Below, piece after piece: positions 59,792-64,000 of a DNA stretch of 64,000 nucleotides. Both the position numbers and the translations under genes were made by a program. The DNA is taken from positions 1 through 64,000 of the forward strand of contig NZ_MAYF01000223.1 of the NCBI RefSeq assembly GCF_001684955.1, given 5' to 3'. This DNA is from Chryseobacterium contaminans (lineage in GTDB: Bacteria > Bacteroidota > Bacteroidia > Flavobacteriales > Weeksellaceae). Below the pieces are notes generated by a model, which saw only the letters and a program-made list of their open reading frames with translations, had not been told where the DNA came from and did not search any database. Each line of letters opens with the position of its first letter. Within the stretch, counting starts at the first letter, position 1.

Positions 59792-60131
59792 GATTATATT
59801 ATTTGATATTCAATATGATTTTTACCCTTTAATTTTGCAAAAATCATGCCTTACAATATGATGATTTTTTCACTTTTTGGACAAATAATTTTGTCTTTTT
59901 CTTTTAATAATATAAAATGATATTCAGTTTTTAGTAACAAAATCATTGTCAGTACAATGACAGGTTGATTTGTTAAAATTTATTAAAAAAATATAGTTTT
60001 GAAATGGAAAAATAATTAATTTTAATAAGACTAAAAACTAACCATAACTGTAAACTCACTCCCAAGATTACACAAAAGTGTAATTGACTACAATTTGTTT
60101 TCTGTTGAAATTTGTTTCAAATAATAAAGAC
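59792..60131. other. Intergenic stretch between lipoprotein and response regulator genes
   Basis: AT-rich, no ORF I can support. It holds a small dyad CATTGT-CAGT-ACAATG (59944-59959), overlapping a second dyad TGTCA/TGACA, of unknown use, and the dyad plus promoter at 60067-60114, listed separately. Confidence 0.6.
60067..60114 (+). promoter_or_regulatory. Regulated promoter of the signalling operon with ATTACAC/GTGTAAT dyad
   Basis: Perfect dyad ATTACAC-AAAA-GTGTAAT (60067-60084) runs into TTG (60084-60086); GAAATTTG (60107-60114) follows at 20 nt as an imperfect -7 box (GA in place of TA). The 11-mer GTGTAATTGAC, the 18-nt spacer length and the -7 type are all repeated at 63042-63089. Confidence 0.75.
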
Positions 60132-60764
60132 ATGAGCATTTCTATTGCCATAGTAGAAGACGAAAAAAACTACAACAATGCGTTGAAGAAGGTGATCAAT
60201 TATCAAAAGGATATGAAAGTTGTTGGCCAATTCTTCGATGGCAATGATGCCTTGAAAAACTTACCTGACCTTTCGCCCAATGTTGTCATGATGGATATCC
60301 AGCTCCAGGATATGCTGGGTATTGAAATCATTGAAAAGCTTAAAAAAGAAATGCCCGAAACCCATTTCATCATGTGCACCAGTTTTGAAGATGATGAAAA
60401 GATCTTTAATTCTTTAAAAGCAGGTGCCATGGGATATCTTGTTAAGGGTGAAAGTATGGATAAAATACTCTCTTCTATCCGGGATGTGTATAACGGTGGA
60501 GCTCCTATGAGTTTTTCTATTGCTAGGAGAGTCCTTCAGCACTTTGAAAAGAAACTTTCAGAGATCAAAGGTTTTGATGAACTGACCAAACGAGAACAGG
60601 AAATTCTTGAACTTCTCTCGCAAGGTTTCCTATACAAAGAAATTGCAGATCAAAAGTGTATCAGTATGGATACTGTGAAAAAGCATGTTGGAAATATTTA
60701 CAGAAAACTCCACGTCAGCAATAAAGTGGAGGCTATTAATAAATTTAACCATTTTAAAAACTAA
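60132..60764 (+). CDS. NarL/LuxR-family response regulator
   Basis: 210 aa from the ATG of MSISIAIVEDEKNYNNAL; the open frame extends 16 codons upstream into the promoter. Receiver domain (about 1-120) with E/D pair EDE, phospho-acceptor D55 (VVMMDIQLQD), and LVKGESMDKIL at the conserved Lys. C-terminal LuxR HTH (about 148-205: LTKREQEILELLSQGFLYKEIADQKCISMDTVKKHVGNIYRKLHVSNKVEAI). Operon with a protein of unknown function, a membrane protein and the partner kinase. The dyad over its own promoter is the probable binding site. Confidence 0.93.
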   Translation: MSISIAIVEDEKNYNNALKKVINYQKDMKVVGQFFDGNDALKNLPDLSPNVVMMDIQLQDMLGIEIIEKLKKEMPETHFIMCTSFEDDEKIFNSLKAGAMGYLVKGESMDKILSSIRDVYNGGAPMSFSIARRVLQHFEKKLSEIKGFDELTKREQEILELLSQGFLYKEIADQKCISMDTVKKHVGNIYRKLHVSNKVEAINKFNHFKN

Positions 60765-60770
60765 GAAACC

Positions 60771-61559
60771 ATGGAGAATTTTAATGAAACAAATCAAGAA
60801 ACTATCAATGGCACGATGACTTATACAGAAGGTCCTATTGGGAATAAATTTGAGAACCTGGTTGAAGGTCTGGAACTTATTGGGGTTGCAACGGTTCTGG
60901 CAGAAAGTTTTATTAATAAAGCTAAAAAAGGGATGTTACCTTTTATGAGAAATAATAATTTTAATTTCAATAATGGTGGTGTTTATGAGGTAAGCTATGC
61001 TTTATTGGATAATATTCGGGAGCTTATGGTAGAAAATAAGGCAACTTATTTAACCTTTACTTTTGTGGAAATATCCCCCGAAGATTCTAGATTAAAAGTT
61101 ACTCCCTATTCTGATGGAAGTATGATGTATATGATAGCATCTTTAGAAACGGAAGAGAAAAAAGCAATTGGAGAACAAAATTACCTTATCATCAATGGTA
61201 ATCAACAGCTCTCATTGAAAGATCTTAAAATTTCAGATAAAGATTTTGAGGACCTTAAGATAGCATATGAAGAACATGGTAAACGAATCATGGATGCATA
61301 TTTTGGAAATAAAACAAATACGGTTTCTATCAGCTATCATATTGTGGATTTAATAGATACTTTACATAAGGAGCCTTGTGATAAATTTATTGTAAATCTT
61401 AGTGAGATTAGTGATGTAAAGAAATTAGTAGCTGAAGAAAGACTTGGTATAATTAAGGAAGCCCAATACAGGGCGCATTTTGAATCACATTTAGATCAAA
61501 TGACATTAGTTTTTAAGGGGAATGATAACTATTATGATATGGGCTCATTATATCCATAA
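60771..61559 (+). CDS. Cytosolic protein of unknown function in the signalling operon
   Basis: 262 aa, 6 bp after the regulator. No signal peptide; one mildly hydrophobic stretch (EGLELIGVATVLAESFI, about 27-43). Mixed alpha/beta sequence with a beta-rich middle (ATYLTFTFVEISPEDSRLKVTPYSDGSMMYMIASLE) and helical C terminus. Not a family I recognise. Conserved position inside a two-component operon suggests a signal-input or output partner. Ends 2 bp before the membrane protein start. Confidence 0.78.
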   Translation: MENFNETNQETINGTMTYTEGPIGNKFENLVEGLELIGVATVLAESFINKAKKGMLPFMRNNNFNFNNGGVYEVSYALLDNIRELMVENKATYLTFTFVEISPEDSRLKVTPYSDGSMMYMIASLETEEKKAIGEQNYLIINGNQQLSLKDLKISDKDFEDLKIAYEEHGKRIMDAYFGNKTNTVSISYHIVDLIDTLHKEPCDKFIVNLSEISDVKKLVAEERLGIIKEAQYRAHFESHLDQMTLVFKGNDNYYDMGSLYP

Positions 61560-61561
61560 AA

Positions 61562-62191
61562 ATGTTATTTCAGATATTATATTTAACAGTACTTTTTGTA
61601 GTCACTGTAAAGTCAATAGTTTTAGCTGGAAAGAAAGGACTTTCCAGCCAAAATTATTTTGCTGTTTTTCTATTGGTTTCTCTTGGGCTGGAGTTGTATG
61701 GACACTATAAAATTTATATCAGAGAGTTTGATTTTGCTTATCTGTTTAATTATTATAGTATTTTTATGATTATATTCTTTTATATATACTATAGCCGGAT
61801 ATTTTCCAGACAGTTAAGAATAGTTTCTCTTGTTTTAGTTATCACAATCCTTACTTACATTCTATTGTTTGTAAAGTTTTATGGTGGAAACTATGCCAAT
61901 GAACTGGGAATATTAGTCTGCTTCTATTTTATTATTAATGCCTTGGTCTGGTTCTATAACAGGATTAAAAACTTTGATGCTGTTAAAATCACTGATGATC
62001 CTCATTTCTGGATATCATCCGGACTGCTTTTTTGGAGCATCTTTTTTATTTTCAGATCTATCCCAATGTATTTTTTTAAAGATAATGATCCTGCTTTTTT
62101 ACAGGTTCTAAAGAATATACAGTATGGTGTGAATATTTTGATGTATACGATGTTCTATATTGCTCTAAACAAATTTAGAAAATCAGTTTAA
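61562..62191 (+). CDS. Six-helix membrane protein in the signalling operon
   Basis: 209 aa with about six hydrophobic helices (near 2-22, 35-52, 65-85, 90-108, 118-140, 155-175 and a final one 185-203). No enzymatic motif seen. It is 2 bp upstream of the kinase gene, and a kinase with only one helix of its own could use this protein as the sensory membrane module. No family recognised. Confidence 0.78.
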   Translation: MLFQILYLTVLFVVTVKSIVLAGKKGLSSQNYFAVFLLVSLGLELYGHYKIYIREFDFAYLFNYYSIFMIIFFYIYYSRIFSRQLRIVSLVLVITILTYILLFVKFYGGNYANELGILVCFYFIINALVWFYNRIKNFDAVKITDDPHFWISSGLLFWSIFFIFRSIPMYFFKDNDPAFLQVLKNIQYGVNILMYTMFYIALNKFRKSV

Positions 62192-62193
62192 TT

Positions 62194-62982
62194 ATGAAGC
62201 AGTTGCCAGATGCAATCAGATTAACCTATATTATTGCAGCAATTTTGCTCATAATATTTGTTGTATTTATTGTTTTGATTATTATTCTATACAATAAAAG
62301 GCAGATTTTTTTTATTCAGCAGCAACGTCTCAAAGAAGCAGAGCATCAAAACCAGCTTCTCCAAAAAGAACTTGAGCAGCAAAGGTCTATTGAAAAAGAA
62401 AGAGAGCGCATTTCCCACGATATGCATGATGATCTGGGGGCCGGTATTTCTGCGTTGAAGCTTCAGGCTGAGTTCCTGAAATATAAAATTGAGGACAATG
62501 AGCTTCAGAATGATATCGATGAATTACTGAGAACTTCAGAAGAAATGAATATCTCCATGCGGGAGATGCTTTGGAGCCTGAACTCAGGAAATGATACATT
62601 AGGAAGCTTTATTGAGTATGCTATATTGTACACCGGAAACTTCTTAAAGAAAACGAAAATAATATTTCATTCAGAATGTGAAGATATTATTTCTGATACT
62701 TCAATTTCTACAGAGTTACGGAGAAACCTGTTTTTATGTTTAAAAGAGGCGGTCAATAATGTATATAAACATAGTAAAGCAAATGTTTTAAAACTTTCAT
62801 TCTGCCAAATCGGAAATCACTTCTTAATGAGGATTGAAGATGATGGAATCGGTATTCCTGGAGGAAAATTGGAAGGTAACGGACTTCGCAATATGAAACG
62901 AAGGATGAAGGAAGTGCAAGGAGAGTGTAAAATCTCATCTGCAACCTCAAAAACTATTCTGACTTTTGAAATTATACAGTAA
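62194..62982 (+). CDS. Sensor histidine kinase, HisKA_3 (NarX/DegS type)
   Basis: 262 aa. One N-terminal transmembrane helix (about 12-35), a coiled coil (about 38-70), the HisKA_3 box RISHDMHDDLGAGISALKLQ with phospho-acceptor H78, then a HATPase_c domain with N box KEAVNNVYKHSKANVLKL and G box EDDGIGIPGGKLEGNGLRNMKRRM. There is almost no extracytoplasmic domain, so the signal must come through the membrane neighbour or intracellularly. Cognate to the NarL-type regulator at the head of the operon. A terminator follows. Confidence 0.92.
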   Translation: MKQLPDAIRLTYIIAAILLIIFVVFIVLIIILYNKRQIFFIQQQRLKEAEHQNQLLQKELEQQRSIEKERERISHDMHDDLGAGISALKLQAEFLKYKIEDNELQNDIDELLRTSEEMNISMREMLWSLNSGNDTLGSFIEYAILYTGNFLKKTKIIFHSECEDIISDTSISTELRRNLFLCLKEAVNNVYKHSKANVLKLSFCQIGNHFLMRIEDDGIGIPGGKLEGNGLRNMKRRMKEVQGECKISSATSKTILTFEIIQ

Positions 62983-63002
62983 TCATTTTCTAAATCTATA
63001 TT

Positions 63003-63034
63003 AACAGCACCATTCCTAATGGTGCTGTTTTGTT
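63003..63034 (+). terminator. Terminator of the signalling operon
   Basis: Perfect 12-bp stem AACAGCACCATT (63003-63014) with AATGGTGCTGTT (63018-63029), 3-nt loop, T-rich tail. Confidence 0.92.
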
Positions 63035-63041
63035 GTTTATA

Positions 63042-63089
63042 ATCACCCTTTTGTGTAATTGACAGGTGTGTTTTTTAGAGAGAACTTTG
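63042..63089 (+). promoter_or_regulatory. Second copy of the dyad promoter, upstream of the unknown operon
   Basis: ATCACCC-TTTT-GTGTAAT (63042-63059; left half 5 of 7 to ATTACAC, right half exact) runs into TTG (63059-63061), then 20 nt to GAACTTTG (63082-63089). The 11-mer GTGTAATTGAC (63053-63063) is identical to 60078-60088, and the spacing to the -7 box is identical. Confidence 0.75.
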
Positions 63090-63109
63090 AGTTAATAAAA
63101 CTAATAGCC

Positions 63110-63436
63110 ATGAAAACTTTAATTAATGACAGTATTGAAGATTTGGAAGCTGCGTTGAAAAGTAGCAGTGATCTTCAGGAAAAATTTAAAACCAATCCTG
63201 TAGAAGCCATTAGAAATATGGAGATTAGAAATCCAAAAGATACAGATTACTGGATTTATAGGATTATTGTTATTATGCTTGGGCTGGCTATCATAGCCAT
63301 TATAGCAGGGCTTATTCTTCTCTCTTTCTGGAGTAGTGGTGAACCGGATAGTCAGCTGGTAACTATTTTTGCCACCATTTCTTCTGGAGCTATTGGTGCT
63401 TTAGCAGGCCTTTTATCCCCTTCACCTAGAAAATAG
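63110..63436 (+). CDS. Small two-helix membrane protein, unknown
   Basis: 108 aa from ATG 63110 (MKTLINDSIEDLEAALKSSSDLQEKF); the longer frame runs into the promoter. A charged N-terminal ~50 residues (cytoplasmic) precede two helices (about 52-72, RIIVIMLGLAIIAIIAGLILLSFW; and 84-101, TIFATISSGAIGALAGLLSPS), the second glycine-rich. The N-terminal KFKTNPVEAIRNME is the only recognisable-looking motif and no family is assigned. First gene of the operon under the shared dyad promoter. Confidence 0.75.
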   Translation: MKTLINDSIEDLEAALKSSSDLQEKFKTNPVEAIRNMEIRNPKDTDYWIYRIIVIMLGLAIIAIIAGLILLSFWSSGEPDSQLVTIFATISSGAIGALAGLLSPSPRK

Positions 63437-63461
63437 ATTAATTATCTTAAAAATTACAATC

Positions 63462-63944
63462 ATGAGAACTAAAAAAGATCAACTGGCCAGAATTATAAAC
63501 ACGCAGTCGCAGCTACTCAATCTCAAAATTATGGAGTTGCAGATGAACAGTGTTTTAGCAGAAAACCAGGAAAGTGACAGCAGATATGTTGCTGCTAAAA
63601 ATATAAGGCTTCCTGATGATAACTCTCAGGTTACTGTTTCAATTTACTTTGGAGGCGAAGGACAATCAGGATCTGCTACTCTAAAAGTGTTAAGAACCAA
63701 TCAGGAAAGTAAATTCATTAAAGGATCTGTTGATAATATTTTAATAGGAACATGTAAGGAACTGATTGGACAGGTTCTGAATATAGAATCTTTTATACAG
63801 GATACAAGTAAGGACAGCAATAAAACTATTTTGACTGTAAAGATCAGACAGGCAGGAAAAGTTATTTATGATGACACTCATATTTCTGAAGTAAAGACAG
63901 AAGGCGGAGCTTCATTATATACCCATCATCTTACATTTTATTAA
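63462..63944 (+). CDS. Soluble protein of unknown function
   Basis: 160 aa, 25 bp after the small membrane protein. A short helical N terminus (ARIINTQSQLLNLKIMELQMNSVLAENQ) is followed by a predominantly beta region (AAKNIRLPDDNSQVTVSIYFGGEGQSGSATLKVLR, KTILTVKIRQAGKVIYDDTHISEV). No signal peptide and no recognised domain. Confidence 0.75.
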   Translation: MRTKKDQLARIINTQSQLLNLKIMELQMNSVLAENQESDSRYVAAKNIRLPDDNSQVTVSIYFGGEGQSGSATLKVLRTNQESKFIKGSVDNILIGTCKELIGQVLNIESFIQDTSKDSNKTILTVKIRQAGKVIYDDTHISEVKTEGGASLYTHHLTFY

Positions 63945-63952
63945 AAATAGCC

Positions 63953-64000
63953 ATGAAAACACTAAAATTGAGTTTTGTATTAACACTCATTCTGCTTTCA
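63953..64000 (+). CDS. Start of an exported protein gene, truncated by the window end
   Basis: ATG at 63953 begins MKTLKLSFVLTLILLS, the first half of a signal peptide, 8 bp after the previous stop. Only 16 codons are visible, so the product cannot be named. It is the third gene of the dyad-controlled operon. Confidence 0.6.
   Translation, partial: MKTLKLSFVLTLILLS

Follow-up and report, generated by a model that had tools for sequence, protein, structure and literature searches.

The stretch analyzed here, 64,000 nucleotides (nt) of Chryseobacterium contaminans DNA (contig NZ_MAYF01000223.1, positions 1 to 64,000; hereafter the window), ends in a signaling locus that is probably a self-regulating two-component system in which both the sensor pair (the proteins here called X and MEM) and the output operon (here called cargo) are exchangeable. 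Comparative sequence data show an operator at each of two promoters (P1 and P2), co-occurrence and covariation of these operators with the regulator, linkage of X with MEM, and modular cargo. The apparent exchangeability of sensor pair and cargo goes beyond what a first-pass annotation of this DNA had claimed and is the larger finding. The features of the locus, with protein lengths in amino acids (aa), are as follows.

60067-60084, + strand: operator O1 of P1, ATTACAC-AAAA-GTGTAAT, an exact dyad centered near -43.5
60084-60114, + strand: P1 core promoter, TTG at 60084-60086, 20 nt, -7 box GAAATTTG at 60107-60114
60132-60764, + strand: response regulator, 210 aa, receiver and LuxR-type helix-turn-helix domains (Pfam Response_reg, E 7.8e-23; GerE, E 3.5e-17)
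60771-61559, + strand: protein X, 262 aa, hypervariable but with a conserved C-terminal tail, which here reads YYDMGSLYP; no known family
61562-62191, + strand: MEM, 209 aa, seven predicted helices, hypervariable and matched to X
62194-62982, + strand: histidine kinase, 262 aa, one N-terminal membrane helix (Pfam HisKA_3, E 2.5e-12; HATPase_c, E 5.3e-07)
63003-63034, + strand: hairpin AACAGCACCATT/AATGGTGCTGTT with a T-rich stretch, read from the sequence between kinase stop and O2 as a probable terminator
63042-63059, + strand: operator O2 of P2, ATCACCC-TTTT-GTGTAAT, half-sites 5/7 and 7/7
63059-63089, + strand: P2 core promoter, TTG at 63059-63061, 20 nt, -7 box GAACTTTG at 63082-63089
63110-63436, + strand: cargo A of family F4, 108 aa, a membrane protein predicted to have two helices, sub-threshold Pfam matches only
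63462-63944, + strand: cargo B, 160 aa, family F10, no known family
63953-64000, + strand: start of cargo C, 402 aa, signal peptide, family F5, continuing to ~65161 past the window (L002:4954-6162)

In the mechanism we envisage, the phosphorylated NarL-type regulator would bind the palindrome ATTACMC-N4-GKGTAAT over the -33 element of two weak promoters, and would most likely activate both the signaling operon, to which it belongs, and the cargo operon. Since the kinase has a single membrane helix, the seven-helix MEM is probably its sensory partner. X and MEM would form a cognate specificity pair, in which the tail type of X predicts the type of MEM and which may be swapped between species en bloc. 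The slot 3' of P2 holds exchangeable modules that resemble parts of conflict systems, among them small proteins of the membrane, probable outer-membrane proteins, YLATT/pYEATS proteins, a trypsin-like protease and a DyP peroxidase. On this model the locus would act as a polymorphic recognition system with conflict-type effectors as its output. Phosphotransfer, activation, contact between X and MEM, and a role in conflict or recognition are steps that we infer.

Operators and promoters of the two operons

The dyad had been described as exact at 60067 and as half-sites of 5/7 and 7/7 at 63042, and both descriptions hold to the base, as do the 11-mer and the promoter geometry said to be shared by the two sites. 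Exact copies of the 11-mer GTGTAATTGAC lie at 60078 and 63053, and there is no third in the whole window. P1 reads TTGAC, 18 nt, GAAATTTG, ending at 60114, and P2 reads TTGAC, 18 nt, GAACTTTG, ending at 63089; TTG and -7 box are 20 nt apart in both, and the right half-site shares one base with the TTG element. When three mismatches are allowed, the window contains two dyads against 4.05 expected, which is not significant, so the dyad draws its weight from conservation and from standing together with the -7 box rather than from the window count alone. Across the 4.7-Mb genome, GTAATTG-N20/21-GAANTTTG has three matches: P1, P2 and one unrelated place. The hairpin and T-rich tract between the kinase stop and O2 suggest that the two operons are probably separate units.

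An orthologue of the regulator is present in 86 of 100 genomes of the same genus, and every named close relative of the locus is from Chryseobacterium. Where gene order could be read through, it is rplQ, a lipoprotein gene, regulator, X, MEM, kinase, cargo and eno. Among the 116 distinct Chryseobacterium loci of our conservation set, the P1 dyad was found within two mismatches in 109. A first count placed the P2 dyad in 87 of the 94 loci possessing a second operon, against 2 of the 22 lacking one. Five of the seven exceptions carry an exact site further down, ahead of the cargo genes; in four of these the kinase and P2 are separated by an extra X-like gene, and the kinase reading frame is broken in the fifth (L103). 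With displaced sites included, the P2 dyad is present in 92/94 loci. The dyad is thus conserved in orthologous loci at both promoters; lack of such conservation was the refuting outcome named beforehand.

TTG and -7 box are separated by exactly 20 nt at 104 of 109 P1 sites and 75 of 89 P2 sites. The flavobacterial -7 consensus, TAnnTTTG, has T as its first base (PMC9723704); at this position (-12) the off-consensus base G is found in 107/109 P1 and 85/92 P2 boxes. Because of their common descent the loci do not give independent counts, and a fairer measure is the contrast between half-sites and upstream flank, which is 1.87 versus 0.70 bits per base at P1 (116 loci) and 1.80 versus 0.28 at P2. 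Mirror-image half-site variants also occur within Chryseobacterium (e.g., ATTACCC with GGGTAAT), mixed pairs being commoner.

A scan for co-occurrence of site and regulator, suggested with the original claim, gave a consistent result. Nearly all exact matches to ATYACMC-N4-GKGTAATTG in 18 regulator-bearing genomes are the two locus sites, and the 14 genomes without the regulator contain none. Wherever extra exact or near-exact sites lead to something recognizable, they stand ahead of cargo-like genes: a protein with two transmembrane helices of cargo family F29 (G071); orphan pairs of the B-C type in four regulator-bearing genomes (G002, G030, G044, G090); and, in 3/3 carrier genomes (L193, L195, L254), a 135-aa gene of no known family that adjoins gapA. 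G057 and G078, two genomes without the regulator, also have B-C homologues, and there no dyad lies upstream. A large regulon was rejected, exact sites beyond the locus being rare and those found heading cargo-type genes. The operator may serve as a simple DNA signature for locating more cargo. At the gapA position of the window's own genome there is a degenerate site, and the 135-aa gene is gone (L196, contig C301 near 21048).

Further evidence comes from several other genera of the family, in which the order regulator-X-MEM-kinase recurs at other chromosomal places. Where the recognition helix of the regulator is DTVKKH or close to it, P1 usually carries the ATTACMC dyad. In g10 (one genus, two genomes) the helix is DTIKKQ, and TTCCAC-N4-GTGGAA or a near copy is found at both promoters. 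Members of g9, g12 and g32 with ETVKKH after P, T or I have a site of the GGTATT type; L236, also of g9, retains the ATTACMC type and, consistent with this, has the helix DTVKKH. A chance repeat or an ordinary sigma-factor element, with the two operons not co-regulated, would fit the unremarkable dyad count within the window, but the site is conserved over ~100 species with divergent flanks, its exact form is absent from the regulator-less genomes, and it covaries with the recognition helix. We rejected this explanation on those grounds and regard it as extremely improbable.

Together these patterns suggest that the regulator very probably binds both dyads and that it probably activates P1 and P2. 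A dyad centered near -43.5 is in a usual activator position, and this placement together with the conserved off-consensus -7 box favors activation over repression. Conversely, a regulator bound over -33 might block RNA polymerase until a signal arrives; autorepression is common among regulators, and the base shared by half-site and TTG would suit it. The G at -12, however, is as expected if an activator is needed, and the position of the dyad fits activators, so we consider repression unlikely. Of the shared, regulator-bound, activator-dependent promoter proposed in the first-pass annotation, the link to the regulator is supported by conservation, co-occurrence and helix covariation; activation itself is still inferred. 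The view of the downstream operon as the dedicated output is supported by the near-restriction of the P2 dyad to loci with a second operon and by the dyads ahead of orphan cargo.

The probable sensor pair X and MEM

Variation is unevenly spread over the signaling operon: mean pairwise identity drops from 87% (regulator) and 71% (kinase) to 32% (MEM) and 18% (X). Regulator and kinase are ordinary members of the NarL/FixJ class: their Pfam matches all lie above curated cut-offs and bear out the NarL-type regulator and one-helix kinase of the original description. Within the kinase, conservation is highest in residues 61-90, phosphoacceptor included (0.93); its lowest values are 0.49 in the N-terminal membrane helix and 0.48 over the last 22 residues.

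X and MEM had been reported to belong to no known family, and this stands: neither has an accepted family in Pfam or NCBIfam, or a PDB fold match with E <= 0.001. PADLOC likewise offers no family for X. The best PDB matches of X are unrelated (a sliding clamp at ~0.4 probability), and MEM resembles seven-transmembrane receptors in topology only. The AlphaFold model of X is confident (predicted local distance difference test, pLDDT, 87), and MEM is modeled as a seven-helix bundle; its helices had previously been put at six, and prediction gives seven.

X ranges from 190 to 317 aa across loci and ends in discrete tail types (GSLYP, GxLKP, GSLEP, GNMQP, TSLWP, NGLCPPGC, NSLCPxxCP, FCLKPPGC). The same X tail is found in the nearest MEM neighbor in 101/105 loci, compared with 30/105 for the nearest regulator neighbor. 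The partial correlation of X with MEM given regulator identity is 0.69, versus 0.08 for regulator with MEM. X proteins less than 25% identical to each other are accompanied by MEM proteins 50% identical when the tails are the same and 29% when they differ. The tail agreement and partial correlations indicate that X and MEM move together, independently of the regulator. It is quite likely, judging from this comparison, that they function as a cognate pair, and the C-terminal tail of X is the best candidate for contact with MEM. A simple residue code relating the tail to single MEM positions was rejected, as many columns are informative and none is outstanding.

How X acts is harder to predict. 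We consider it possible, although somewhat doubtful, that X is an internal guard or anti-activator that silences MEM and the kinase and is disturbed by phage, toxin or envelope damage, its variability reflecting an arms race. X is co-translated next to the regulator and mostly lacks a signal peptide, X and MEM diverge very fast, and the YLATT, pYEATS and trypsin-like domains in cargo are of conflict-system type, all of which would suit a guard; the missing PADLOC match and the lipoprotein forms of X within the same tail groups would not. Slightly less probable, in our view, is a secreted or exposed X that is read by MEM on neighboring cells in pherotype-like communication. ComQXPA pherotypes have a constant regulator and a hypervariable signal and receptor that are inherited together (PMC4408185), and the polymorphism here is similar: the regulator is constant, the kinase fairly so, X has discrete C-terminal tail types, and orphan extra X genes with foreign tails occur in four loci. 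However, X is 200-300 aa long and folds as a whole in the model, most X lack a signal peptide, and the operon contains no processing or export gene.

The locus shares with ComQXPA and Agr this pattern of a constant regulator beside hypervariable, co-inherited genes for the signal and receptor sides. It differs in that X is a folded protein rather than a short propeptide, that receptor and kinase are separate proteins, and that it belongs to a different phylum. Pfam gave no ComQ- or AgrB-like processing family for MEM. Lacking both short propeptide and processing enzyme, the locus is not counted as a member of ComQXPA/Agr. With the 7TMR-DISM proteins of Bacteroidota it shares the general scheme of a histidine kinase served by a membrane sensor of seven helices, but MEM is a free-standing 209-aa protein, and a comparison with PF07695 gave nothing above cut-off (1/43 members sub-threshold, E 0.33).

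Other arrangements of these genes were also seen. An extra orphan X-like gene without a MEM of its own lies between kinase and P2 in L061, L076, L077 and L078; its tail is unlike that of the resident X (e.g., resident GSLEP, extra GHLYP or NGLCPPGC), and it may be left over from a sensor pair once present there, or may act as a decoy. Distant versions in L247, L248 and L249 have the order X-like, MEM, kinase, regulator, with the regulator last; their X-like proteins are small and some are lipoproteins. MEM-kinase pairs with no adjoining regulator or X occur in L235, L239, L243 and L251, several of them beside a tRNA-synthetase-like gene.

The cargo operon

An operon of three proteins of no known family had been described behind P2. 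A and B indeed have no accepted family, but the third gene lies almost wholly outside the window, beyond whose end the 402-aa protein is followed by enolase and citrate synthase. C is a probable outer-membrane protein; a Pfam search with an F5 relative of it returned no family. PADLOC models gave no convincing match to X, MEM, A, B or C. By eye, the N-terminus of A (SIEDLEAALKSSSDLQEKFKTNPVEAIR, 63110-63210) resembles leader helices of ribosomally synthesized and post-translationally modified peptides (NHLP/Nif11-like), followed by the two membrane helices; the leader-like part matched no family.

Family F4, to which A belongs, recurs in 31 loci. Recurring B+C modules combine F10, F12 or F21 with F5, or F9 with F8; further modules are F17+F13, F15 with or without the DyP peroxidase F20, and trypsin-like F22 with F19. 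Domains found in the cargo of other species are YLATT (E 1.1e-18), pYEATS (E 1.2e-06), trypsin (E 9.9e-05) and DyP (E 2e-08), with YLATT and pYEATS together in F19 and YLATT in F24, above the Pfam cut-off. A tie between cargo type and X tail type was rejected (no association, permutation p 0.14).

Typical effectors in bacterial conflict systems include trypsin-like proteases and membrane-pore candidates (PMC7159879, PMC8195603). We see roughly an even chance that the cargo serves conflict. Known YLATT/pYEATS conflict modules have the same YLATT, pYEATS and trypsin-like domains as the cargo of other species, but the modules here are under two-component control, occupy a fixed chromosomal slot, and showed no NTPase or nucleotide-signal partner. 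The names YLATT and pYEATS are those of Pfam, and as terms they are absent from the open-access literature searched, save for one text-recognition artefact.

In two other genera (L236, L238, L242, L250), a dyad after the kinase is followed by only ~60-120 nt before a terminator-like hairpin, and in L242 and L250 this short stretch contains a tiny frame, MKTF-stop. The stretch may be a cargo slot that has lost its genes, or it may encode a small RNA. One genus has a B-C cargo pair (relatives of F12 and F5) within the signaling operon, between X and MEM (L240, 1537-2969).

A proposed modular signaling platform

Like other NarL/FixJ systems, the locus has the usual kinase and regulator domains and a palindromic site before its own and its target operon. 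It differs in that the sensor input is split off as a separate hypervariable pair and that the regulon is essentially one neighboring, exchangeable operon. We found no account of the locus in the open-access literature, most subscription journals being outside this coverage.

Several observations weigh against the model proposed above. L068 and L111 have a second operon and no P2 dyad, L250 and L318 (g11) have no clear dyad at P1 (in L250 a perfect dyad follows the kinase), and in G015 and G054, which possess the regulator, the orphan B-C copies lack a dyad. The helix covariation amounts to few independent events, g10 being one lineage in two genomes, and the case for activation comes from promoter geometry alone. 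The cargo of this window contains neither YLATT nor pYEATS and matches no conflict family. Finally, by a simple heuristic, most X lack a signal peptide and some of the same tail groups look like lipoproteins, so that one topology of contact between X and MEM is hard to state.

A more speculative reading, which we hold to be rather unlikely, is that this is a polymorphic self/non-self recognition system of Bacteroidota, in which the tail of X would be a specificity token for a matched seven-helix receptor and the constant kinase and regulator would switch on cargo behind a shared operator.

If the model of an autoregulated system with exchangeable sensor pair and output is true, most Chryseobacterium species and several other genera of the family would possess a plug-in signaling platform, in which a constant switch and operator are combined with an interchangeable recognition pair and output. 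Two unannotated protein families would gain a testable role, and the ~ten natural tail/receptor specificities would offer a route to understanding how protein tails are read by a seven-helix receptor linked to a kinase.

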